This document shows, piece by piece, positions 1,690 to 15,765 of a DNA stretch of 22,538 nucleotides (positions are counted from its first letter, which is position 1; every line of letters starts with the position of its first letter). A program made the position numbers and the translations under genes. Origin of the DNA: a virus; the IMG/VR virus record IMGVR_UViG_3300042882_001019, positions 1-22,538 of that record; one strand, given 5' to 3'. The notes below the pieces were generated by a model. The model did not search any database. It was not told where the DNA came from and saw only the letters and a program-made list of their open reading frames with translations.

Positions 1690-2952
1690 ATGGCTGGGTT
1701 ATTAGGATTGGAAGAAATCAGCAATGATCCAGGCAGAATGGGGTTGCTCATGATGGGGTTAGGCATGATGGGCGGCGGTGGTGGTCGTAATGCGACTTTT
1801 GGCGATTCTATGCAGGGTGGTATGCAAGGGCTTTTAGCCGGTATGCAACAAGCACAAGCCATGAAAATGCAAAACCGTAGACTATCACGCGACGAACAGG
1901 AACAAGCCTGGATTGATCAGCAGCGGGAAGCCATGCAAGGCATGGACATTAATAATCCGGATGCCGTTAATCAATTGCTGAGAAGCGGCAACGCGGCACA
2001 AGCCATGCAGCTATTGAAGATTCAACAGCCAAACAAGGGGATAGACCCGTATTATCAAGCTATCCCAACCAGTGACGGATACATATCATTTAACGCCAGA
2101 ACAGGCGAATATGCACCGTTGGGCAGTAATGGGCAGCCATTGAGACAGCCAGCGGCAGACCCGGGATTACAAGGCCAGATTATGGCAGCAAAGGAAAATC
2201 AGAAAATCAATGATGTAACTTTGCAGGATGGTCGAAAAGTCCCGCGCAGGATGGGTGATGTTGTTGGAACCACTGAGCGTGTTATAGATGACGAATATTT
2301 AAAAGCCTTAATGCAAGCTGCAAGCCAAAACGACGACCCACAATTAAAAGACAGGGCGGCGGCTGAACTGGACGCAATTAGCAGGCAACAAGGAAACAAT
2401 CCAGAGATAGGCCAAAGCACGGCAGAAGAGGCCAAGCAAAAAGAGCTTGGCAAAGCATCAGGAGAAGCTGCAAGCAGCGTGAATAATCGCTTAACGGCTT
2501 TAGATGGGATCATTGAAGAAGCCGATAGAGGAATTCAAGCGCTATCGCCTAAAGTGGATCCACTTAGCGGAAATGTTGTAGGTTTTGGGATAGAAACTGG
2601 CGGCATGTTGCCAAGCGCTAGAAAGCTTTGGAGTAGTGGCATTACAAACGACCCCAATTATCGAGATATCGAGACAGCAGCCAGCGGGGCAAAATTGCAA
2701 GGTGCAATTAATTTCCTGAAAGGCCAAGGAAGTGTAACAGAAGCAGAGCGGGCTTTGATTGGTGAACAAACAGGTATAGACCCTTATCAATACAGTTCAC
2801 AACGTAATTTTGAGCGGTTGGTGAGACTGAAAAAAAATGCCGAAAACGCTAAAAAAGCCATATTGCAGCAATCGCAAGGCAATTTTTCGCCGGTGCAAAG
2901 CAATCAAGGGCCAAGTGTTGATGATCTATTGAAATTATACGGTGGTCAATAA
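1690..2952 (+). CDS. Putative DNA-ejection / internal virion protein (420 aa)
   Basis: A 420-residue protein. It has a short Leu/Met/Gly-rich N-terminus (LLMMGLGMMGGGGG), a Gln/Met-rich helical segment (about residues 35-95), then a mixed helical body. N-termini of this kind (small hydrophobic Met/Gly run, then a Met-Gln helix) are common in the middle member of podovirus ejection-protein triplets; this is inference. Start ATG 1690 lies just after the TAA of the preceding gene (1686-1688) and uses the G-rich end of that gene as its ribosome site. An in-frame ATG at 1654 would overlap the upstream gene by 35 nt and is less likely. The stop overlaps the next start (TAATG). No enzymatic motif is visible. 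Confidence 0.6.
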   Translation: MAGLLGLEEISNDPGRMGLLMMGLGMMGGGGGRNATFGDSMQGGMQGLLAGMQQAQAMKMQNRRLSRDEQEQAWIDQQREAMQGMDINNPDAVNQLLRSGNAAQAMQLLKIQQPNKGIDPYYQAIPTSDGYISFNARTGEYAPLGSNGQPLRQPAADPGLQGQIMAAKENQKINDVTLQDGRKVPRRMGDVVGTTERVIDDEYLKALMQAASQNDDPQLKDRAAAELDAISRQQGNNPEIGQSTAEEAKQKELGKASGEAASSVNNRLTALDGIIEEADRGIQALSPKVDPLSGNVVGFGIETGGMLPSARKLWSSGITNDPNYRDIETAASGAKLQGAINFLKGQGSVTEAERALIGEQTGIDPYQYSSQRNFERLVRLKKNAENAKKAILQQSQGNFSPVQSNQGPSVDDLLKLYGGQ

Positions 2953-4760
2953 TGGCGACACGGGAACAGATAGCGCAAGCACTCCAAGCAGCTCACGCGG
3001 CTGGTAATGTTGAACACGCCAGAATATTAGCGCAAGCTTACCGGGACTTAGGTGACAAGCAGGCAATAACACAACCATCAACAGCGGCTTATTCTGAATT
3101 CGATAAATTGCCATTAGGAGAAAAGCTATTAGTCGGCACTGGTAAAGGTGCGGCTGATGCTATAACAGGCATTACTGATTTACTTGGCTATAGTGATACT
3201 TTCAATCTTGGAAATCATGCAGAACAAGATAAAATTATTAGCGAATCGACACCAGGGAAAATAGGCGAGGTTGCAGGAAATGTTGCGGCCACATTGCCAA
3301 CTACCTTTATACCTGGGGCCAACACGCTAAAAGGCGCGGCATTAATTGGTGGCGGAACTGGATACTTGACAAATAAAGGCGACCATCACGAAAGGGTCGA
3401 TAATGCCCTGATTGGTGCGGCTGGTGGATTGTTAGGGGCTTCATTGCCATACGGGTATAATTTAGCAGAAAAAATATTCGCGCCTTTAGGCTCAAGGAAG
3501 TCAAAGGAAAAGATTATTGGCAGTGTCATCAATAACGCGGCACAAGATAGCGCTCCGGACATTGAGCAAAGATTGCTAAGTTCTGATGAACTGATACCGG
3601 GCAGCGCTCCCACGGCAGCAGAAGTGGCTGAAAGCGGAGGTATTTCCTCACTACAACGGGCCATGTCTGCCGCCAATCCAGAGGCTTACACTAACAGAGC
3701 CTTAGAGCAATCTTCAGCGAGGGTTAATGCTTTGCGGGGTATTGCAAAAGATGAAACGGCGCTAAATGACGCGATCATCGCAAGATCAAAAGCTGTAGAG
3801 CCATATTATCAAACCATCGATCAAGCAATCTTAGATATTGATCCACAGTTACAATCCATTATGGAGCGGATGCCTAAAGGAACTATTGAACAGGCTAAAG
3901 AAATAGCCAGAATGGAAGGTCGGCCATTCATGTTGAAGCCCGCAACAAATCAAGCATCAAGTGGATACAGTTTTGTCAATCCAAAGCCAGATAGAATCTA
4001 CGGTGGAGACATTGACACTATGAAAAAAGCCATCGATGTTGTTTTAGCAAAAGATGCAAAAAACGTGATCGATAAAAACATGGGCAGCGCTTCTGGATCG
4101 GTGAAAGGAGCATTAACAAGTTGGGCTGATGCACAAGTTCCAGATTACGCAATTGCTAGGAAAACATTCCAAGAGTACAGCAAGCCAATCAACCAAATGG
4201 AAGTCGGACAAGAGCTATTAAACCGTTTAAAGCCTGCATTATCAGATTATGGATCGCTTGGTAAAGAAACAAAAAACGCTTATGCGAAGGCGCTAAAAGA
4301 TGTGAATGGTAATCTGGTTAAAAAATCCACTGGCGGTATATCAAAAGGAATTGTTGATGTAATGACTCCTGAGCAAATGGGCATCCTTAACAACATAGCA
4401 AAGGATTTAGCTAGAAAGGAAAATCTTGAAGGTCTTGGGCGTGGCGTTGGATCAAACACTTTTCAGAATTTCGCTATGAACGGCATAGCCGAGGCGGCGG
4501 GGATTCCTTCTGCTGTTTCTGGATTGCTGCAACTGATACCGCCAACACGCTACGCAATGAACGTAGGCAAGGCGGCAAGCTCTAAGCTTTACGAAGGCGC
4601 AGAAAAGGAAATGAAGGCCATGATGGCAGATGCATTGCTTGATCCAAAAGAAACAGCACGATTAATGAAACTTGCTAGGCAGCGTGGCTTGTTGAGTGGG
4701 CCGCGTGTTGATGCATTACCGGGGCTGCTAGGTATAGGGTTAGCTAATTCGCTTCAATAA
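2952..4760 (+). CDS. Putative DNA-ejection protein with hydrophobic Gly-rich segments (602 aa)
   Basis: A 602-residue protein. The N-terminus (about residues 5-35, IAQALQAAHAAGNVEHA) is a small helical hairpin seen at the start of many large phage virion proteins. Residues of about 100-165 hold Ala/Gly-rich hydrophobic stretches with GxxxG-like spacing (for example ALIGAAGGLLGASLP). These are typical of ejection proteins that cross or line the inner membrane during genome delivery. The rest is helical, with no lysozyme or protease motif visible. It starts by a one-base overlap with the previous gene (TAATG at 2950-2954). It is the last of three consecutive structural genes, and its 3' end overlaps a small convergent gene by 21 nt. 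Exact role unproven. Confidence 0.6.
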   Translation: MATREQIAQALQAAHAAGNVEHARILAQAYRDLGDKQAITQPSTAAYSEFDKLPLGEKLLVGTGKGAADAITGITDLLGYSDTFNLGNHAEQDKIISESTPGKIGEVAGNVAATLPTTFIPGANTLKGAALIGGGTGYLTNKGDHHERVDNALIGAAGGLLGASLPYGYNLAEKIFAPLGSRKSKEKIIGSVINNAAQDSAPDIEQRLLSSDELIPGSAPTAAEVAESGGISSLQRAMSAANPEAYTNRALEQSSARVNALRGIAKDETALNDAIIARSKAVEPYYQTIDQAILDIDPQLQSIMERMPKGTIEQAKEIARMEGRPFMLKPATNQASSGYSFVNPKPDRIYGGDIDTMKKAIDVVLAKDAKNVIDKNMGSASGSVKGALTSWADAQVPDYAIARKTFQEYSKPINQMEVGQELLNRLKPALSDYGSLGKETKNAYAKALKDVNGNLVKKSTGGISKGIVDVMTPEQMGILNNIAKDLARKENLEGLGRGVGSNTFQNFAMNGIAEAAGIPSAVSGLLQLIPPTRYAMNVGKAASSKLYEGAEKEMKAMMADALLDPKETARLMKLARQRGLLSGPRVDALPGLLGIGLANSLQ

Positions 4761-4894: not shown

Positions 4895-5866
4895 CTATTT
4901 GAGTTTTTTTGCTATTTCTTCAGCGGTTTCGTTGTAATAGAGCAGCGTCATAGATAAAGATTTATGGCCGACCATACGGGCCAGCTCAAACTGTGTTAGC
5001 ACCTTAGCCAGACGCGTAATTGCTGAATGCCGTCCGTCGTGGAATGTACCATGCTTTACACCGCCTCGAACTCTCCCACGCTGGAATGCTTCGGTTAGCG
5101 TATGCCGTTTAATGCCGAATGGCTTTAATTCTGACTGCCTACTTTTCAGTATTTCGACAGCCTTACTGGATAATGGCACGGTTCGACGCTCCCCGTTCTT
5201 GGTCATCGATAGCAACACAAATCGATTCTCTAAGTCTATTTTTGCTTACTCCATACCAATGATTTCCCCGGCTCTCATGCCTGTTTCAATCGCAAACAGA
5301 AAAGCATCGCCACTGGTCTGTTCCACTTTGGAACATGGCCCATTGTGGCCTAATCCTTTCAATATCTGGCTGATTTCATCATCACTGTATATCCTATCGC
5401 GCCCTTGGCTCTTAGAGGGCTTTCTAAGCTCCTTGGCGGGGTTTTCTTTAATCCAGCCCCACTCACGCCTAGATTGTTCGAGAACGGTCTGTATCATCGA
5501 ACAATATCGGCTAACGCTATTATTCTTCATTGTCTTCAGCTTTTCATCCCTATACCTTGCAAGCATCTCGGTTGTAATGTCTGATACGGGCTTGTCGGCA
5601 AAATCGGCTTGTTTGACGATCTTGAGCAAATAGGATTCGTTGTAAGCGTTTCGCTTGGTAGGGGTGATTTCTGCAAGGTACTTGTCCACAGCATCAGAAA
5701 ATGTTTTGTTTGTGCCATGGTGATAAGTACCGGCATTGATTTCAGATTCAGTCTGTGTTGCCCATGCCTGAGCTTGGCCTTTAGCTTGGAAAGACTTAGC
5801 AAGGCGTATGCCTTTCTTGAATATTTGCACTTGCCAAGTCTTTCCGCGTTTGGTGATGGTTGCCAT
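4895..5866 (-). pseudogene. int: Tyrosine integrase interrupted by an in-frame TAA
   Basis: A site-specific tyrosine recombinase of 323 codons, read from ATG 5866 (start of MATITKRGKTW, the usual N-terminus of this family). The frame is broken only at codon 207 by TAA (5246-5248) and then continues in the same frame to TAG at 4895. All expected catalytic residues are present across the break: Arg198 (TGMRAGE), Lys223 (TKNGERR), His276 and Arg279 (FHDGRHS), His301 (VGHKS) and Tyr310. The stop sits just after GME, where relatives usually read G-L-x-W, so it probably replaces Trp; TGG to TAA needs two changes. Downstream restarts (GTG 5218) would lack Arg198. It is either an inactivated gene, a read-through case or a sequence error. 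Without read-through the product should be inactive. Confidence 0.85.
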
Positions 5867-5883
5867 GTCGTGATTTTGTCGTG
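5866..5883. repeat. 18-bp direct repeat, copy 1 (abuts int start)
   Basis: TGTCGTGATTTTGTCGTG, identical to 6051-6068. The box is itself two TGTCGTG units 11 bp apart. It begins on the integrase start codon, so bound integrase could also repress its own gene. Interpretation as an arm-type site is inference. Confidence 0.7.
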
Positions 5884-6073
5884 GAACGGATATTAAACAA
5901 CATAACAGAATAGCAAAAGATAGCAAAGTTACATATATAAAAAACAGTTATTTAGAGGAATCTAGCAAAATATGATAAGCCTTATAAAGTTACCTATCTT
6001 CTCTCAACCAGAAGTTAGTTTTGTTGGTATACATGGCTCTCATGTGATGTTGTCGTGATTTTGTCGTGATTGG
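5867..6073. other. Candidate attP / integrase-arm region
   Basis: A 207-bp AT-rich gap between the integrase start and the next gene. It holds paired direct repeats: an 18-bp box at 5866-5883 and again at 6051-6068; TAGCAAA at 5911, 5921 and 5963; and AAAGTTAC at 5925 and 5986. Clusters of short direct repeats next to int are typical of arm-type integrase and excisionase binding sites, and no other gap near int is large enough. No core crossover site could be identified from this sequence alone. The integrase promoter must also lie here or further upstream. Confidence 0.45.
6051..6068. repeat. 18-bp direct repeat, copy 2
   Basis: Exact second copy of the 5866-5883 box, 185 bp away in the same orientation and just past the end of the 85-residue gene. 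Probably the other outer boundary of the integrase-binding region. Confidence 0.7.
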
Positions 6074-6511: not shown

Positions 6512-7011
6512 TTTTTACGCTCCCACCGCTCAAACCTATAACCTTCACGGTATTCCACTTGCTCAAGTTCAAAATTAACCCGTTCTTTGTTCCAGGTTTC
6601 AAGCGGGAAATAAGCTACTTCATCGCCATCTTCAACGGGAGTATTTTGATCGACTTTAGTGAGCAGTAACGTATCAGCAAGCGGTATCGCTTCTTCGTAG
6701 AGTCTTGAGCCGCCTATGATGAATGCTTGTTCATAATTCAAAAATTCATTAGCCGTATAAAGCGCACCCGTTAAATTTCCACATAACCAAACATCATCAA
6801 GTAGTTCTGTTTTTGTTGAAACAATAATATTTTGTCTAGCTGGTAACGGCTTAAACGGCAAACTTTCCCAAGTTTTTCGCCCCATAATAACGGCATGACC
6901 AGTAGTCAACGATTTAAATCGCCTCAAATCCTCCGGTATGTGCCATGGCAGTTTGCCGTTTACGCCTATAACCCCATTGGCATCGAATGCCGATATGATT
7001 TTGATTTTCAC
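6508..7011 (-). CDS. folA: Dihydrofolate reductase
   Basis: A complete 167-residue DHFR, which reduces dihydrofolate to tetrahydrofolate with NADPH for thymidylate and purine synthesis. Visible motifs are IISAFDANGVIG and LPWHIPEDL (Asp at the folate-binding catalytic position, about residue 28), VIMGRKTWESLP with the PLPARQNIIVS strand (NADPH site), and FIIGGSRLYEEAIP. The length is typical. It starts with GTG 7011 (AGGA about 9 nt upstream), overlapping the previous stop by GTGA. No thymidylate synthase gene is visible, so the phage copy may supplement host folate during replication or also serve a virion role as in T4. Lying next to the excisionase and recombination genes places it in the early-left operon. 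Confidence 0.93.
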   Translation of the reverse strand: MKIKIISAFDANGVIGVNGKLPWHIPEDLRRFKSLTTGHAVIMGRKTWESLPFKPLPARQNIIVSTKTELLDDVWLCGNLTGALYTANEFLNYEQAFIIGGSRLYEEAIPLADTLLLTKVDQNTPVEDGDEVAYFPLETWNKERVNFELEQVEYREGYRFERWERKK

Positions 7012-10418: not shown

Positions 10419-11153
10419 CTATTCAGCGTCTTTTAAACGCTCATCAATAATTGCAAATAGTGGTTGTTTCCAGCGTTTCCACCATGAAAGTGCTTTGCTA
10501 TCCATTTTTAAAATCTGTTCATCAGTAAATTCTTTCCATTTTGAAATTGGATGTTTTTGGCATCCTATTTGTAGTATTTCTTTAGTAAATCCAACACACC
10601 AATTGTCAATTTGAAGCGTGAAAATGAATTTCATATCGCCATAACAAAGCAAGTTAACATCACTCAAGTTGGCATCACACAAGTTGGCATAACTCAAGTT
10701 GGCAGCACTCAAGTTGGCAGCACGCAAGTTGGCATCACTCAAGTCGGCAGCACTCAAGTCGGCAGCACGCAAGTTGGCAGCACTCAAGTCGGCAGCACTC
10801 AAGTTGGCAGCACGCAAGTTGGCATCACACAAGTTGGCATCACACAAGTTGGCAGCACTCAAGTTGGCAGCACGCAAGTTGGCATCACTCAAGTCGGCAG
10901 CACTCAAGTCGGCAGCACTCAAGTTGGCAGCACGCAAGTTGGCATCACACAAGTCGGCATAACTCAAGTTGGCAGCACTCAAGTTGGCAGCACGCAAGTT
11001 GGCATAACTCAAGTTGGCATAACTCAAGTTGGCATAACTCAAGTCGGTTTTTGCTTTTATTGCAAATTCAACTGTTATCCTTATCGAGTTGTTTTCTTGT
11101 TCATGAGAAAACAATACTTCGTTAGTTATTTTGTGCTTTATTTCTATTTTCAT
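10419..11153 (-). CDS. Pentapeptide-repeat protein (244 aa)
   Basis: A 244-residue protein with three parts: an N-terminal beta-like domain (about residues 1-36, KIEIKHKITNEVLFSHEQEN); roughly 26 consecutive A(N/D)L-S/C/R-x pentapeptides (about 38-168), which should fold as a right-handed quadrilateral beta-helix; and a C-terminal domain with the run FTLQIDNWCVGFTKEILQIG then CQKHPISKWKEF, seen in other phage pentapeptide proteins. Pentapeptide proteins often mimic DNA or bind other proteins, but the target here is unknown. I chose ATG 11153 (MKIEIKHK); an in-frame start at 11231 would read through the tRNA-like element. The repeats are also near-identical at DNA level, which suggests recent expansion. 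Confidence 0.82.
   Translation of the reverse strand: MKIEIKHKITNEVLFSHEQENNSIRITVEFAIKAKTDLSYANLSYANLSYANLRAANLSAANLSYADLCDANLRAANLSAADLSAADLSDANLRAANLSAANLCDANLCDANLRAANLSAADLSAANLRAADLSAADLSDANLRAANLSAANLSYANLCDANLSDVNLLCYGDMKFIFTLQIDNWCVGFTKEILQIGCQKHPISKWKEFTDEQILKMDSKALSWWKRWKQPLFAIIDERLKDAE
10651..11040 (-). repeat. 26 tandem 15-nt units encoding the pentapeptides
   Basis: On the plus strand, 26 back-to-back units of the form AAGT(T/C)GGCA(G/T)(C/A)AC(T/G/A)C, with no insertion or deletion and a handful of variable positions. The first unit has a diverged AAGTTAACA start, and a partial 27th unit begins at 11041. Units group into higher-order runs (for example the order at 10696-10725 recurs at 10846-10875), which points to unequal recombination or slippage of blocks larger than one unit. 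Confidence 0.9.
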
Positions 11154-11188
11154 TGTTATCTCGTTAAAAAGACCTTGACCAAAGCCAT

Positions 11189-11329
11189 GGTTTGAGCTTT
11201 CAATGCTGACGACTGGTTGGAATCGAACCAACGCAATACACCGTCACAACGGGGCTTTAGGTAGCTACAACTAAGAACCCACCGACAGCAGCTCTCCCAA
11301 CTGAAGCTACAATCGCCAGCATTCAAACC
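11189..11329 (-). other. tRNA-like structured element (element C) in the pentapeptide leader
   Basis: On the minus strand there is a perfect T-arm, GTTGG-TTCGATT-CCAAC (11232-11216), and a nearly standard D-arm, TAGCTTCAGTTGGGAGAGC (11309-11291). A 7-bp acceptor-like helix joins GCGATTG (11316-11310) to CAGTCGT (11215-11209), with two G-U pairs. The helix extends by ATGCTG/CAGCAT (6 bp) and, after a 7-nt bulge, GGTTTGA/TCAAACC (7 bp). Between D- and T-arms are 58 nt instead of about 23, forming a 9-bp stem (GGGTT-C-TTAG with CTAAAGCCC) and a CCGT-TGTG-ACGG hairpin. No ordinary anticodon stem can be drawn and no CCA follows. It is tRNA-derived but probably not a working tRNA. Confidence 0.6.
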
Positions 11330-11344
11330 TCAAAGAGCAATCAG

Positions 11345-11491
11345 CTACCTGAATCTGTTATTAAAAACAAAACAGGCTTTATCAAATTGAGCATCGTAAG
11401 TACGCGATTCATGGCAAATATCAATAAACGCTCTTAGTTCTGCTTGACTCATGGTTTCAAATTTTGTTTGTCTTTTTGTTTTCGCTTTCAT
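11345..11491 (-). CDS. Small basic protein (48 aa), first gene of the left operon
   Basis: A 48-residue frame with a strongly basic N-terminus (MKAKTKRQTKFE) followed by a helix (MSQAELRAFIDICHES) and a short aromatic tail. It is the first reading frame after the candidate left promoter and a promoter-proximal terminator. N-type antiterminators of lambdoid phages begin with a similar basic stretch (for example AKTRR in P22) and occupy this place, but they are about twice as long, so this is only a suggestion. A weak GGA lies upstream of the ATG. It could also be an unrelated small regulator or a chance frame. Confidence 0.45.
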   Translation of the reverse strand: MKAKTKRQTKFETMSQAELRAFIDICHESRTYDAQFDKACFVFNNRFR

Positions 11492-11502
11492 TTTTATTGT
11501 CC

Positions 11503-11529
11503 AAAAAGACCGGCTAAACGTCAGCCGGT
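11503..11529 (-). terminator. Rho-independent terminator, leftward
   Basis: Minus-strand ACCGGCT-GACGTTT-AGCCGGT: a 7-bp perfect stem at 11529-11509, followed after one C by TTTTT (11507-11503). It lies about 42 nt downstream of the candidate left promoter start and before the first left-operon gene. It can therefore terminate either that promoter's transcript (attenuator-like) or read-through from the repressor gene. Confidence 0.75.
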
Positions 11530-11550
11530 TTGAGTTAGGAGTTTCACATC

Positions 11551-11569
11551 ACAAAGCAGCTTGCTTTGT
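11551..11569. promoter_or_regulatory. 19-bp palindrome, candidate operator
   Basis: ACAAAGCA-GCT-TGCTTTGT, 8 bp perfect arms with a 3-nt centre. It sits just downstream of the candidate left promoter, about where a repressor would block initiation. As RNA it would also form a tight hairpin. Which protein binds is unknown; the arms differ from the switch-region boxes. Confidence 0.45.
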
Positions 11570-11577
11570 TGGGTGTA

Positions 11578-11605
11578 ATATTAGCATTATGCGAATAATT
11601 TGCAA
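11578..11605 (-). promoter_or_regulatory. Candidate left early promoter
   Basis: Minus strand TTGCAA (11605-11600), 16-nt spacer, TAATAT (11583-11578), predicted start near 11571. It is placed where a lambda pL-like promoter would be, left of the repressor and reading into the recombination/integration genes. A palindrome covers its start and a terminator follows. Confidence 0.5.
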
Positions 11606-11637
11606 TAGGCAAAAGCAAATAAATTTTACAAAAAAAC

Positions 11638-11976: not shown

Positions 11977-12024
11977 TTTGCAATCAGCAAATATTTTGTT
12001 GCTACAATGTTTGTAATCGACTAA
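11977..12024. promoter_or_regulatory. Operator array between repressor and cro-like gene
   Basis: Box 1 is TTTGCAATCAGCAAA (11977-11991), a near-palindrome with TTTGC/GCAAA arms. Box 2 is TTTGTAATCGACTAA (12010-12024), matching box 1 at 11 of 15 positions, with start 33 bp (about three helix turns) away and overlapping the rightward -10. Between them TTGT-TGCT-ACAA (11996-12007) is a shorter palindrome over the -35. The arrangement is that of a three-operator lysis-lysogeny switch. Confidence 0.55.
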
Positions 12025-12027
12025 TAT
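11999..12027 (+). promoter_or_regulatory. Right early promoter (PR-like)
   Basis: TTGCTA (11999-12004), 17-nt spacer, TAATAT (12022-12027). Predicted start 12034-12035 coincides with the ATG of the cro-like gene, so its mRNA should be leaderless. No ribosome site is present upstream of that ATG, which agrees. Confidence 0.65.
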
Positions 12028-12034
12028 AGTGCCC

Positions 12035-12223
12035 ATGAAAAAGCTCCTAGAATACAGATTGGCTCATAAACTTAACCAAAGGCAAATGGCTGCATTTATT
12101 GGCTTTTCTCCCGTCACTTATCACGAGTGGGAAAAAGGCAAAAAAAGGATGAGCCGAACTGCTGCTTTGGTTGTTGCTGAAAAAACGGGTTTATCCCGCG
12201 ATTATTTAATTTTTGGCGATTAG
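12035..12223 (+). CDS. Cro-like HTH regulator (62 aa)
   Basis: A 62-residue XRE/Cro-type DNA-binding protein: LEYRLAHKLNQRQMAAFIGFSP (helices 1-2), then VTYHEWEKGKKRMSRTAALVVAEK (recognition helix and helix 4), ending DYLIFGD. Its size and position (first gene of the rightward early operon, divergent from the repressor) make it the Cro counterpart. It should repress the repressor promoter and fine-tune early transcription. ATG 12035 is preferred over GTG 12029 because the promoter puts the transcript start at 12034-12035. Downstream are the hairpin series and terminator that separate it from the rest of the operon. Confidence 0.8.
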   Translation: MKKLLEYRLAHKLNQRQMAAFIGFSPVTYHEWEKGKKRMSRTAALVVAEKTGLSRDYLIFGD

Positions 12224-12250
12224 TCATGCTGCCAACATGCATCAATCAGT

Positions 12251-12317
12251 TTAAAGCCGCTTGCAGACCGGCTAAGTCTGCGCTCTCGTTAGTTAGGACA
12301 GGGGAAACCCAACTAGC
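12251..12317 (+). ncRNA. Structured RNA leader before the right terminator (candidate nut/put-like site)
   Basis: AGCCG (12255-12259) pairs with CGGCT (12269-12273), and the loop sequence GCAGAC (12263-12268) pairs with GTCTGC (12276-12281). Together they have the order of a compact H-type pseudoknot, or they are two alternative hairpins. Next comes CGCTCTCG (12281-12288), close to the boxA core CGCTCTT. Then a hairpin follows: TAGTT (12290-12294) with AACTA (12311-12315), a 6-nt bulge, and GGG-GAAA-CCC (12301-12310), a GNRA-capped stem like a boxB. It directly precedes a strong terminator, so an antitermination or attenuation role is a reasonable inference. No homologous element was identified. 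Confidence 0.45.
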
Positions 12318-12361
12318 CCACGTTTGCATTGCGGAATCGCGGTGGCGTGGGCGTTTTTTTT
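12316..12361 (+). terminator. Strong rho-independent terminator (tR1-like)
   Basis: GCCCACG (12316-12322) pairs with CGTGGGC (12346-12352). Above a TTTG/G internal loop, CATTGCG (12327-12333) pairs with CGCGGTG (12338-12344) around a GAAT loop: 14 bp in all. It is followed by G and eight T (12354-12361). It ends the cro-like transcript and stands only 10 nt before the next start codon, so genes further right need read-through. Confidence 0.85.
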
Positions 12362-12371
12362 GGGTGGCGGC

Positions 12372-12575
12372 ATGAACGCTATTTGCGAGCTGAAAGCCAA
12401 GGTTACGGAACAGACTCATGATGATTTCCTTGTTGCGGCTCGTCATCTTGGATTCTCCACGCGATCAGAGTTTTTGAGATACATCGTAGAGCGTGAGCTT
12501 TACGGTATTTCGGCACAGTTACAGATTACGAGAATACCTGGTGCTTATACAGGGCAGGATTCTCAAAAAGTTTGA
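12372..12575 (+). CDS. Ribbon-helix-helix-type regulator (67 aa)
   Basis: A 67-residue protein. Residues of about 6-45 (ELKAKVTEQTHDDFLVAARH, LGFSTRSEFLRYIVERELYG) fit a ribbon-helix-helix fold: one strand (ELKAKVT), helix A, a Gly-Phe-Ser/Thr turn and helix B with the pattern S-x-F-L-R. Such proteins bind DNA as dimers. It may be a second early regulator comparable in position to CII-like genes, though of a different fold. ATG 12372 is chosen because the frame upstream is taken up by the terminator hairpin; the ribosome site (GGTGGCGG) is weak. The short tail after YGISAQLQ is unlike known domains. Confidence 0.7.
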   Translation: MNAICELKAKVTEQTHDDFLVAARHLGFSTRSEFLRYIVERELYGISAQLQITRIPGAYTGQDSQKV

Positions 12576-12997
12576 CCCTGTTTTGTGTGCGTTAGCGTAC
12601 AGACAGGCATGAAGTAATGGAAACACGCAATAAGCGGACATAGCCAGAGACAGACCCTGAAAGGCCGGAGTAATTACCGGGTGAATTGGCAAGACGGCAG
12701 GAACTTAGCGCGAAACAAAGCTAGGCCGTTTTGAAACCATAGAAGCGGGGAAGGTTGATTGTACTGGTTACAAAGTAGGCAGGCGTGGGGTAGTTAATGG
12801 TTATCTCTTAACTCCCGAACGATGATTGATAAAAGCAAATTAGCCATTAGGCGAGCTGTAAAACTGAAGGTTGTTAGTAGCATCAACGGTCACAGCGGAT
12901 TATCACATAAAAAGCCAGGAGGCCCAAGTAACCAACAAAACCGCTTCGGGTGCAATTTGCGCCTTGGGTAAGTTATACCCTGAAAACTGAGGTTTAC
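12576..12997 (+). ncRNA. Gene-free structured region, candidate RNA of about 400 nt
   Basis: 422 nt with stops in every frame and no plausible gene on either strand, in an operon where other genes touch or overlap. Stem-loops on the plus strand: CCTGT/ACAGG plus TGTGCG-TTAG-CGTACA (12577-12607); CAAGACGG (12690-12697) with CCGTTTTG (12726-12733), stacked on CTTAGC (12704-12709) with GCTAGG (12720-12725); TTGTA-CTGGT-TACAA (12759-12773); GGG-T-AGTTAA (12788-12797) with TTAACTCCC (12808-12816); GCTGT...ACAGC with GTTG/CAAC inside (about 12855-12895); CCCAAG (12923-12928) with CTTGGG (12963-12968), competing with GGGTA-AGTTA-TACCC (12966-12980). No iteron-like repeats or T-tract terminator are seen. 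It could be a trans-acting RNA, a cis-regulator of the next gene, or origin DNA. No known family could be assigned. Confidence 0.5.
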
Positions 12998-13264
12998 ATG
13001 AGAATTGATATGAATGTCCCTTTCCAAGACAAGGACGAAGCAAAGGCTCTTGGTGCTAGATGGGATGGCTTCAAAAGGTGCTGGTTTATAGTCGATCAGG
13101 AAGATTTGAACCCATTCATTAAATGGTTTCCTGAGTATTTAACCCGCCCATACAACAACAATCCTGGACAGGGAAAAAAGAAGAAAAAGAAAAAAAGCAA
13201 TACAAGTCAATACGGTTTGAAAGACATACACAAACAAAGTGTTAAGCATTTCAAAACAATTTAA
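12998..13264 (+). CDS. DUF5710-type protein with lysine-rich tail (88 aa)
   Basis: An 88-residue protein. Residues 1-45 (MNVPFQDKDEAKALGARWDG, FKRCWFIVDQEDLNPFIKWF) match the DUF5710 module, a small domain found alone or fused to primases, helicases and mobile-element proteins. It is thought to bind nucleic acid or partner proteins, but its role is not established. The second half is basic, with seven Lys in a row from an A-rich run (about 13176-13198). GAGG (12989-12992) lies 5 nt before ATG 12998; an upstream in-frame start at 12950 would lie inside the structured region. It is placed directly before the helicase, so a replication role is likely. Confidence 0.75.
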   Translation: MRIDMNVPFQDKDEAKALGARWDGFKRCWFIVDQEDLNPFIKWFPEYLTRPYNNNPGQGKKKKKKKSNTSQYGLKDIHKQSVKHFKTI

Positions 13265-13266
13265 AT

Positions 13267-13305
13267 AAAAAAGCCGGTCATTCCCGCGAAGAAAGTAACC
13301 GGCTT
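13267..13305 (-). terminator. Leftward rho-independent terminator inside the right operon
   Basis: AAGCCGGT (13271-13278) and ACCGGCTT (13298-13305) form an 8-bp stem. Read on the minus strand it is followed by TTTTATTT (13270-13263). Read on the plus strand it has no T-run. There is no minus-strand gene upstream for 7 kb, so it either stops stray leftward transcription or ends a short antisense RNA. Confidence 0.6.
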
Positions 13306-13330
13306 AGTGTTCAACGAACGAGGTGATTAT

Positions 13331-14806
13331 ATGACGGAACTAAGTTTAAGGCCATATCAGATAACGCAAAACAATGCGATACGCCAATCCTTTGGGAAGG
13401 GTAATCGCAGAATCATAAGCTGTATTGCTACCGGATCAGGCAAAAGTGCAATGCTTGCCGATTTAACAAAAAATATGCTTGATAAATCGCCTATCGCAAG
13501 GGTTTTGATAGTGTTGCCGCGTAGATCGTTGGTTATGCAGTTGTCAGAATCATTTAGCGGATGGGGCATTAATCACGGAATTATTATGGCAGGGATAAAG
13601 CCGGTTAATTTGCCAAGAGTGCAGATAGCAAGCATTGACACATATTTGAGCAGGCTTAGCAGTAGTTACATCGAATTGTTTAACGCCGATATGTTAATTA
13701 TTGATGAAATGCATCTTCAATTTACAGCAAAAAAACTGGAATTGTTTAGCAATTACCCGTTAGTAATCGGATTTTCTGCAACACCTATTGCACCAAAAAA
13801 GCAAAGCTTAGGCATTTTTTATCATGACATCGTGGAAACCATCACGATGCAACAATTGATGGATCAAGGATTTTTAACGCCGTTGAAGTGCTACGCAAAA
13901 CCTGGAATTGATCTATCAGGCTTGAAAACTGATGCAGATGGCGACTATAGGGAATCACAACTAGGCGACGTAATGGATAAGCCGCAATTAGTGGGCGACA
14001 TATACGCCAACTGGAAGCGTTTAGCAGCCGGAAAACCAACAGTGATATTCGCATCAAGCCAAGCACATGCGCGGCATTTATGCGAAGAATTCAACGGCCA
14101 TGGGTGGAGGTTCCACTATGTCGATTGCAACTATTCAGATGACGAAAGACAGGGGATTTTCGATGAAGTTAGAACAGGAAAAGCGATTGGGATTGTTAAT
14201 GTTGGGATTGTCAGCGTCGGTATTGATATTCCTAATCTCGAATGTGTGGTTCTTGCACGACCCACAAAACTTATTAGCGTGTATTTGCAATGTGTTGGGC
14301 GCGTTACTCGTCTTGCTACTGGTAAACAAAGCGGAATCGTTATTGACCACGCTGGAATCATCGAAAAAATAGGCTTACCCACAGATGCTTTTGAATGGTC
14401 ACTTGACGGAAAAGAATCCGTCGAAGAGCGGGCCAGGAAAAAGAAAGAAGATCGCAAGGGACCAAAAGAGCTAGTTTGCAAAAAATGCGAAACCGTTTTT
14501 AAAAGCCGTCGATCATGCCCTGCTTGCGGATTTGAGATTATCCCAAAAGGCGACGCAATCCCCGTACACCAAGCCGAGCTGCAAGAGGTCAAAAAAGTAC
14601 CAAGCATAGAAAAAGAAGATTGGTATCAACAGATGCTAGGTTGGTGCAGACGTACCGGCAAGCGTGACGGCGTGGCTTTTTATGCCTATCAGGCGAAATT
14701 CGGCGTACAGCCAGCCTGGAAGAAGGTAGCAAAAGAGCCTACGTCCGACGTTGTCAACTACATGAAGCACAGACAGATTGCTTATGCAAAAGGACGTGCA
14801 GCATGA
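13331..14806 (+). CDS. Superfamily 2 DNA helicase with C-terminal zinc finger
   Basis: A 491-residue SF2 helicase of the RadD/UvsW-like type, using ATP to unwind or remodel DNA at the phage fork. It has a Q-like LRPYQ motif (6-10), Walker A ATGSGKS (33-39), Walker B DEMH (125-128, in place of DEAH), motif III SATP (149-152), a second RecA-like domain with VGIVSVGIDIP (291-301), and motif VI QCVGRVTR (320-327). A zinc finger (Cys383, Cys386, Cys396, Cys399) follows, and then a small C-terminal domain. Start ATG 13331 has GAGGTGAT (13320-13327) just before it. The next gene overlaps by ATGA. Its partner is the primase downstream; no DnaB-like helicase is seen, so this may be the main replication helicase. 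Confidence 0.9.
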   Translation: MTELSLRPYQITQNNAIRQSFGKGNRRIISCIATGSGKSAMLADLTKNMLDKSPIARVLIVLPRRSLVMQLSESFSGWGINHGIIMAGIKPVNLPRVQIASIDTYLSRLSSSYIELFNADMLIIDEMHLQFTAKKLELFSNYPLVIGFSATPIAPKKQSLGIFYHDIVETITMQQLMDQGFLTPLKCYAKPGIDLSGLKTDADGDYRESQLGDVMDKPQLVGDIYANWKRLAAGKPTVIFASSQAHARHLCEEFNGHGWRFHYVDCNYSDDERQGIFDEVRTGKAIGIVNVGIVSVGIDIPNLECVVLARPTKLISVYLQCVGRVTRLATGKQSGIVIDHAGIIEKIGLPTDAFEWSLDGKESVEERARKKKEDRKGPKELVCKKCETVFKSRRSCPACGFEIIPKGDAIPVHQAELQEVKKVPSIEKEDWYQQMLGWCRRTGKRDGVAFYAYQAKFGVQPAWKKVAKEPTSDVVNYMKHRQIAYAKGRAA

Positions 14807-15765
14807 TCGCATTAGTAGACATCCATCAGCAATGCTCAGGCCGTTGGAGTGGCGTTTTGACCGCTATAGGACTGCCAAGACAAGCGTTTACAGGAAAGCA
14901 CGGTGATTGCCTTGTCTGCGGTGACGATCGCAAGAATGCCCGCTGGAACCCAAAGAAAGAATACTGGGTGTGTTCAAAGTGCGGCGTTACTCAGGCCATG
15001 GAATTAGCCCTTAAATTTACCGGCGAATCATTCAGACAAACAGCAGCCCGTATTCGTGGCGAGAGAATAGAAACCATGGAACCCATTAAACGAGAATATG
15101 ACTATGAAAAAAATAAAACCAGATTACAAGCAATTCACAAAACATTATCAAGACTTACTGAACAATCGTTGGCCTTTGCCTACTTTACAGAACGCGGCAT
15201 TTCGGTTCTGCCAGAAAAGAATTGTCACGAAAGCACAGGCGTTCCTTATTACCAGGACGGAGCAAAACAAGGGGCATTCCCCGCGTTATGTTCATCTTTC
15301 AGAAACATCAGCGGCGAGATTTGCAGTTATCACGTTACCTATTTATCAGACGATTGCAAAACAAAAAGAGCCATTGAATCGCCAAAAAAAATACTTCCAT
15401 CACTATTCCCGCTTGCCGGTTGTTCTATCCAACTGTTTGAGCCAAAAGCCGGAGTTTTAGGGATAGCGGAAGGCATAGAAACAGCGCTTGCTGTGCATCA
15501 ACTTGAAGGCTTGCCGATGTGGGCGGCTGGCAATGCGGTTTTGATGGAAGCCTTGCAGGTTCCTGAGTCAGTAAATGAGGTTTGGATTTACGCTGATAAC
15601 GATGCGAGTTTCACCGGCCAAAAAGCGGCTTACACCCTAGCCAATAGATTAAAGCGCGAAGGGAAAAAGGTTTTTGTTGAGATTCCGAAGGAGGTCGGAA
15701 CCGATTTTTTGGACGAATTAAACCGCGAACGCTCCGAGACAGAAGCCCGGAGACAGCCGACGTGA
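14803..15765 (+). CDS. Phage primase (zinc finger plus Toprim)
   Basis: A 320-residue primase that makes RNA primers for DNA replication. It has an N-terminal zinc ribbon (Cys36, Cys39, Cys57, Cys60), a linker region (90-210), and a Toprim domain with GIAEGIETAL (Glu223) and WIYADNDAS (Asp265, Asp267) as metal-binding sites. This matches the short phage primases related to the N-terminal half of P4 alpha and T7 gp4, without the helicase domain, which is instead supplied by the gene upstream. It begins inside the helicase stop (ATGA). The C-terminus after DELN is short and polar. All key residues are present. Confidence 0.9.
   Translation: MIALVDIHQQCSGRWSGVLTAIGLPRQAFTGKHGDCLVCGDDRKNARWNPKKEYWVCSKCGVTQAMELALKFTGESFRQTAARIRGERIETMEPIKREYDYEKNKTRLQAIHKTLSRLTEQSLAFAYFTERGISVLPEKNCHESTGVPYYQDGAKQGAFPALCSSFRNISGEICSYHVTYLSDDCKTKRAIESPKKILPSLFPLAGCSIQLFEPKAGVLGIAEGIETALAVHQLEGLPMWAAGNAVLMEALQVPESVNEVWIYADNDASFTGQKAAYTLANRLKREGKKVFVEIPKEVGTDFLDELNRERSETEARRQPT

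Follow-up and report, generated by a model that had tools for sequence, protein, structure and literature searches.

In phage lambda, the nut site (boxA-boxB) belongs to the rightward operon and comes after cro; in HK022, antitermination at the put sites works by way of the zinc-binding domain in the beta' subunit of RNA polymerase. Among replication elements, a lambda-O-type origin has its iterons inside the initiator gene, and the pre-primer of the ColE1 RNA II type is a long, untranslated and structured RNA that stands in cis ahead of the replication start. Further afield are the large, gene-free RNA candidates GOLLD, ROOL and OLE. The put RNA of HK022 measures about 70 nt, is composed of two stem-loops, and occurs twice, each early operon having one of two similar copies (PMC9378689).

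The locus described here, a 422-nt gene-free segment (the ‘gap’), has features in common with each of these, and differs from each. The virus record that contains it is 22,538 bases long; we refer to the whole of this record as the window, and read it as a temperate phage. Like put, the gap would be a short structured RNA of an early phage operon, but it is single-copy and continues into a ‘body’ of about 400 nt; like nut it is found downstream of cro, but is far longer and carries no boxA-like sequence. As with a lambda-O-type origin it would serve a replication module, that module however having no initiator gene and the gap no iterons. The likeness to ColE1 RNA II, as an untranslated RNA in cis, is a lead only, and neither an RNA-DNA hybrid nor a primer is evidenced for the gap; and the likeness to GOLLD, ROOL and OLE is one of size and lack of genes, the gap itself having no match in Rfam.

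The gap and its operon

Reading the early operon from left to right (Table 1), we see a Cro-like regulator and a 67-aa small protein, then the gap, then a small DUF5710 protein, a superfamily-2 (SF2) helicase and a primase, with the recombination and SSB genes coming after the primase; the gap thus separates the regulator genes of the phage from its DNA-copying genes. The 67-aa protein has no match in Pfam or PHROG, and is by our own reading ribbon-helix-helix-like (RHH). Between the other genes of the operon the distances are -22 to 63 nt, save for 148 nt ahead of the RHH gene, and it is against these that 422 nt stands out; the picture of a packed operon with one gene-free stretch, as drawn in an earlier note on this DNA, therefore holds with that single exception.

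Table 1. Features of the early region in the window, and comparable regions in other phages (L numbers are our handles for individual records)
Feature	Position	Strand	Basis or remark
Cro-like HTH regulator	12029-12223	+	Pfam HTH_3, E 1.2e-8; PHROG transcriptional regulators; heads the rightward early operon
67-aa small protein	12372-12575	+	stop codon adjoins the gap; L007 protein 88% identical
5' hairpin TGTGCG-TTAG-CGTACA within CCTGTT/GACAGG	12576-12607	+	fold of -14.0 kcal/mol
Gene-free body	12608-12997	+	no Rfam, protein-family or similar-DNA match
8+6-bp stacked stem	about 12690-12733	+	in MFE fold; local -15.8 kcal/mol; no better than shuffles
9-bp bulged stem	12788-12816	+	in MFE fold; local -10.5 kcal/mol
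7-bp stem CCCAAG/CTTGGG (12922-12969), then TTGGGTAAGTTATACCCTGA	12922-12984	+	drawn from the sequence
DUF5710 small protein (88 aa)	12998-13264	+	Pfam PF18974, E 1.6e-18; first gene past the gap
Pre-helicase hairpin GCCGGT..ACCGGC, A-run on left	13269-13302		sequence and local fold
SF2 DEAD/ResIII helicase	13328-14806	+	ResIII, E 3.2e-19; phrog_16 DNA helicase, E 2.8e-85
Toprim primase	14803-15765	+	Toprim_3, E 1.2e-18; phrog_510 DNA primase, E 6.7e-48
Pseudomonas element loci	L016 (YA3) 2750-3250; L015 (PS-1) 2990-3500; L025-L032; L046-L057
Enterobacterial G-run core	L034 2083-2495; L021 1738-1995; L065 1528-1955; L067 1529-1955; L017 2310-2497

Neither strand of positions 12576-12997 carries a credible gene, as the same note had maintained. 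The open reading frames present are short (49 aa on the plus strand, 45-57 aa on the minus strand), have no meaningful match in Pfam or PHROG, and score between -0.13 and 0.15 bits per codon, against 0.17-0.38 for known genes; on this lack of protein similarity, together with the low codon scores, we reject a frameshifted gene, and see no sign of an intact or decayed one. The gap also has no promoter-like site, no plus-strand terminator at its end, no tRNA or tmRNA, no DnaA box and no boxA-like site (CGCTCTTNNA; both at up to one mismatch), and no iterons, the repeats around it being two-copy and 11-14 nt long. We found no second copy of its sequence elsewhere in the window, and no initiator gene or iteron array elsewhere in the early region. 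A decoy for CsrA/RsmA was considered and set aside, GGA motifs being no commoner here (judged by eye) than composition predicts. The cumulative GC skew of the window reaches its minimum near 11.5-12.5 kb.

Other parts of the window have features of their own. The integrase is split into two open reading frames on the minus strand (4895-5926), as a frameshift or an error in sequencing would do, with the N-terminal domains at 5246-5926 and the catalytic domain at 4895-5218. A minus-strand pentapeptide-repeat gene (10419-11231) has strong tandem DNA repeats and a spurious repetitive reading frame on its opposite strand; between it and a CI-like repressor is a second long gap with no clear gene (11232-11637, about 407 nt), inside which there is a leftward terminator-like hairpin (11509-11529).

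Folding and relatives of the gap sequence

The gap had been called highly structured, and the three helices named in support of this can indeed be drawn (Table 1); structure beyond chance, on the other hand, is not borne out. The global minimum free energy (MFE) is -118.8, compared with -111.8 in shuffled sequences (z = -1.17), and is equalled by 13 of 100 shuffles, whilst the best local fold of 60 nt is matched by 69 of 100. For coding segments of this phage, z lies between -1.6 and 1.4. Saying this, MFE is a weak test here, its z-scores being uninformative for every body type that we describe below: the Pseudomonas ‘type A’ elements, whose stems covary, reach merely -0.3 to -1.4, such that a chance-level fold in the window does not exclude a functional RNA.

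A scan against Rfam 15 at curated thresholds, a check that the earlier note had asked for, returned no match in the window (group I and II introns, tmRNA, RNase P and 6S RNA included), in keeping with the view that the gap belongs to no known RNA family; the GOLLD, ROOL, HEARO, OLE and c4 antisense RNA families likewise have no match in the window. Relaxing the threshold to an E-value of 10 yields two chance-level matches, both outside the gap.

Full-length relatives of the gap were found in two contigs, both of them identical copies, for which reason compensatory change cannot be tested on the window sequence itself. Searches by DNA of phages, plasmids and Escherichia coli genomes found no diverged relative of the body, and searches of viral contigs, by neighbouring proteins and by pattern, returned identical copies plus one different phage, L007; a scan of genome contigs gave no relative either. 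The DNA identity with L007 (82.6%) spans the RHH gene and the 5' hairpin at 12576-12607, and ends there; the hairpin, directly after the same RHH gene, is thus the sole part of the gap common to another phage (local score of 44, compared with 25 +/- 4 in shuffles, none of 300 reaching it). The replication module of L007 is of another kind, with a DnaB-type helicase and a gap of just 129 nt. Upstream of that helicase, four 21-nt palindromic iterons (6764-6859) lie inside an HTH initiator-like gene, an arrangement that is likely to be a lambda-O-type origin; the gap of the window, as noted, has no iterons.

A chance-level fold and the want of conserved relatives beyond identical copies are what one would expect of a decayed-gene remnant, or of a neutral spacer without function. 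We regard this as very improbable: the reading frames of the gap have no similarity to proteins, spacers are rare in this operon, and many phages have a gene-free region of similar size at this place.

Same-place elements in Pseudomonas phages

Among annotated phages, the nearest relatives of the helicase (about 33% identical) come from PS-1 and other Pseudomonas phages. From cro to the helicase, PS-1 has no annotated gene over 614 nt, and in YA3 a distance of 472 nt separates the last small regulator from a 64-aa reading frame that precedes the helicase; the passages of the YA3 paper in which these coordinates are given leave the gap uncommented (PMC7326022). Scans by shared motif and helicase alignment add about 15 further IMG/VR Pseudomonas contigs with the same arrangement. 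The gene-free regions measure about 430-614 nt, and all accompany an SF2 helicase and primase module.

The window agrees with these phages in several respects. Its gap is in the same place, after cro and one or more small regulators and before the SF2 helicase and primase. An unrelated small reading frame comes after the gap both in the window and in type A. The hairpin ahead of the helicase in the window, which looks like a terminator for leftward transcription, has a counterpart of similar appearance in the Pseudomonas phages, AAAAACGCCCC..GGGGCGTT, at the same position (3430-3466 in YA3).

The first 60 nt or so of each Pseudomonas region fold as a three-way junction, formed by P1 (ACCGCT/AGCGGT, TCCGGT/ACCGGA or TCCGGC/GCCGGA), P2 (CATC/GATG or CTGTC/GACAG) and P3 (GCGYCT/AGGCGC). 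Across 15 distinct sequences, 93.7% of the cells are paired, and 21 cells have changed on both sides, as compared with 6.6 in shuffles; the covariation score is 0.275 as against 0.125, and is reached by none of 500 shuffles, which ignore kinship in both tests. Sliding one partner by one to three columns, a control that handles relatedness better, abolishes the pairing signal, every slide being far worse. A model of the junction also finds the diverged copy in L046, which was absent from the model, at 51 bits. A short reading frame over this element (MVKAPSPSRRS) was considered and put aside, its start codon being lost in L054-L057 and L046 with the hairpin pairs kept. Rfam has no match in PS-1 or YA3, nor in L027, L046 or L054, and the junction together with the bodies that follow it apparently represents a set of new, undescribed noncoding elements.

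At the level of sequence and model, the resemblance to the window is slight. The 5' element of the window is a single extended hairpin as opposed to a three-way junction, and the junction model, run over positions 12000-13400, has its best match (7.1 bits) beyond the gap, at 13267-13307. A second model, built from a 3' stem of body types B and C with GGGGAAGATNTGCCC, makes a weak match at 12945-12986 (9.4 bits; E = 0.021 for 1.4 kb, 1.2 for 82 kb). Here TTGGGTAAGTTATACCCTGA of the window resembles the corresponding B/C motif, TGGGGAAGATNTGCCCNGA, and does so at the expected end; we take this as suggestive only. The body of the window does not significantly resemble any of the types A, B and C, its local scores being reached by 22-116 of 300 shuffles.

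A compact and conserved element of about 60 nt, similar in size to put (PMC9378689), at the start of an untranslated stretch and constant above varying bodies, invites comparison with antitermination: the 5' hairpin would behave like lambda nut or HK022 put and carry polymerase across the long untranslated stretch, and the body would be only a leader, or a protection against Rho. We think this distinctly unlikely. Searches of four Pseudomonas records found one copy of the element in each, and the window has no second copy of its gap, in contrast to the two copies of HK022; the gap has no boxA-like site; and the strong conservation of the bodies would be left unexplained.

After the junction we find one of three bodies: A (YA3-like), B (L027 and L031) or C (PS-1-like). 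B and C can be aligned with each other (score of 181, compared with 47 in shuffles, the junction supplying part of it), and compensatory changes distinguish two of their stems; the good score of A against B or C comes mainly from the junction. Within a type, bodies are 93-98% identical, compared with 78-90% for the helicase DNA, and constraint spans about 400 nt. Although the difference is at times smaller (87.1% for the body versus 84.5% for the helicase in L015/L046, and 97.6% versus 96.8% in L025/L026), the bodies are as a rule conserved more strongly than the helicase gene beside them.

Bodies are also exchanged. L043 and L041 are 99.6% alike over 507 upstream nt, including the junction, and have similar helicases but unrelated bodies; L025 and L027 are 97% alike over 3.3 kb of helicase-primase sequence, again with unrelated bodies. 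Such unrelated bodies between near-identical flanks define the body as a cassette, with the junction as one boundary and the pre-helicase hairpin as the other, and the swapping of A and B under nearly the same helicase makes body-specific recognition by helicase or primase unlikely. In the two best-supported alignments, one-sided changes within helices are mostly G-U on the plus strand, which is what RNA transcribed from the operon would predict. Taken over whole bodies, where changes are too few for a verdict, we count six GU to four AC in type A and two GU to six AC in type C. We tentatively favour action at the RNA level. In some of these phages (L028 8541-11051 and L029 3090-5600; also L053), the helicase extends to 836 aa through an insertion directly after its GAGK motif, which reads like an intein.

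A discrete cassette, traded between near-identical phages, strongly conserved in sequence and followed, in type A and in the window, by an unrelated small reading frame, as is often seen with accessory modules, might alternatively be a trans-acting RNA, processed from the early transcript and possibly an exchangeable accessory that acts on host machinery or defence. The gap nevertheless has neither a promoter-like site nor a plus-strand terminator at its end, the element is always fixed before the helicase in the loci examined, and a direct sign of a discrete RNA is lacking; we consider this reading fairly unlikely.

Replication modules with and without an initiator

Enterobacterial relatives have a gene-free zone of about 160-430 nt before the helicase, or before one small reading frame that precedes it. 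Nine of these phages have in common a G-rich core, GGGGAAGAGGGTAAGGGGGG ... GGAACAGG ... GTTAAGTAGATCACTGT, in zones that are strongly G-skewed (0.24-0.58); the core may be an origin that could form R-loops or G-quadruplexes. With its G-runs this zone looks different, and a function in common with it is thus an analogy. In other relatives an initiator gene is present. A RepL-type gene (by Pfam) lies directly before the helicase in one Vibrio and one Pseudoalteromonas phage (L018 and L019), and in a second Pseudoalteromonas phage (L024) RepL, so named by the record annotation and with no Pfam match, is one gene further up; none of the three has a large gap directly before the helicase. Taken with the short gap of L007, these sizes indicate that, in the phages examined, a long gap accompanies the helicase-primase module that has no initiator; exceptions are a Pelagibacter phage, in which the primase directly precedes the helicase with no gap, and phage Arya, whose gap is short.

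One reading of the gap, an origin of replication being the main alternative in the earlier note, is an origin at the level of DNA, recognised in double- or single-stranded form, to which an RNA copy would be irrelevant. Consistent with it are the position of the gap directly upstream of the helicase and primase, the lack of an initiator gene or iteron array elsewhere in the early region, the nearby minimum of GC skew (though divergent transcription alone would yield one) and the heavy G-skew of the enterobacterial zones. It fits less well with the prevalence of G-U among one-sided changes in the well-supported Pseudomonas helices, with constraint reaching over some 400 nt, and with the exchange of bodies under the same helicase, and we judge a DNA origin unlikely.

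Our preferred reading, held tentatively and at a likelihood short of even, is that the gap is a noncoding, cis-acting segment of a replication module consisting of SF2 helicase and primase without an initiator. The early rightward transcript (cro, small regulator, gap, DUF5710, helicase, primase) would cross the gap as untranslated RNA; the short hairpin would open the segment, the body of about 390 nt would come next, and the leftward terminator-like hairpin would close it before the helicase. This RNA, or its DNA, may then fulfil in cis the task for which other phages use an initiator protein and iterons, marking or preparing the start of replication, tuning expression of the helicase, or both. 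Action in cis is favoured by the position just ahead of the helicase, and by the initiator gene found in its stead in other relatives; and, given that bodies are exchanged under one helicase, contacts are likelier with the constant 5' element or with steps linked to RNA polymerase.

In support of the cis-acting reading we have the position in the operon, the genes that are absent, and the comparable regions in relatives, which are paired, conserved and swappable, as well as the mutual exclusion with initiator genes; counting against it are the lack of significant similarity between the body of the window and A, B or C, its own chance-level fold, the exchange of bodies under nearly the same helicase, the absence of iterons and DnaA boxes from the gap, and the Pelagibacter phage and Arya as exceptions. 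By analogy of place, we infer that the window region shares the role of the Pseudomonas elements, that the RNA form of the segment matters, and that its role is in the control of replication. The suggestion in the earlier note of a new phage RNA, either trans-acting or a large cis-regulator, accordingly fares in two ways, gaining from the empty Rfam scan and the covarying elements at the same place in Pseudomonas phages, and losing from the fold of the window's own sequence and from the failure of our searches to turn up a diverged relative of it. A bolder version takes the 422-nt segment of the window as one lineage and Pseudomonas A, B and C as others, and proposes that a structured untranslated RNA, carried as an exchangeable cassette, replaces the initiator protein and sets up replication in cis; this we hold to be doubtful, and quite unlikely.

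To our knowledge, how replication starts in phages with a superfamily-2 helicase and primase but no initiator is not established. Here, the place of the initiator gene in some relatives is that of a gene-free segment in others. The sequence of the window alone is of modest weight; what the comparison adds is a set of undescribed elements in culturable Pseudomonas phages, and since the element is carried by two named phages of the laboratory, PS-1 and (on P. aeruginosa PA14) YA3, the question becomes testable. Should the RNA not act in replication, these would still constitute an undescribed set of conserved noncoding elements; if the RNA itself does act, they would represent an unusual, RNA-based form of replication control in tailed phages.
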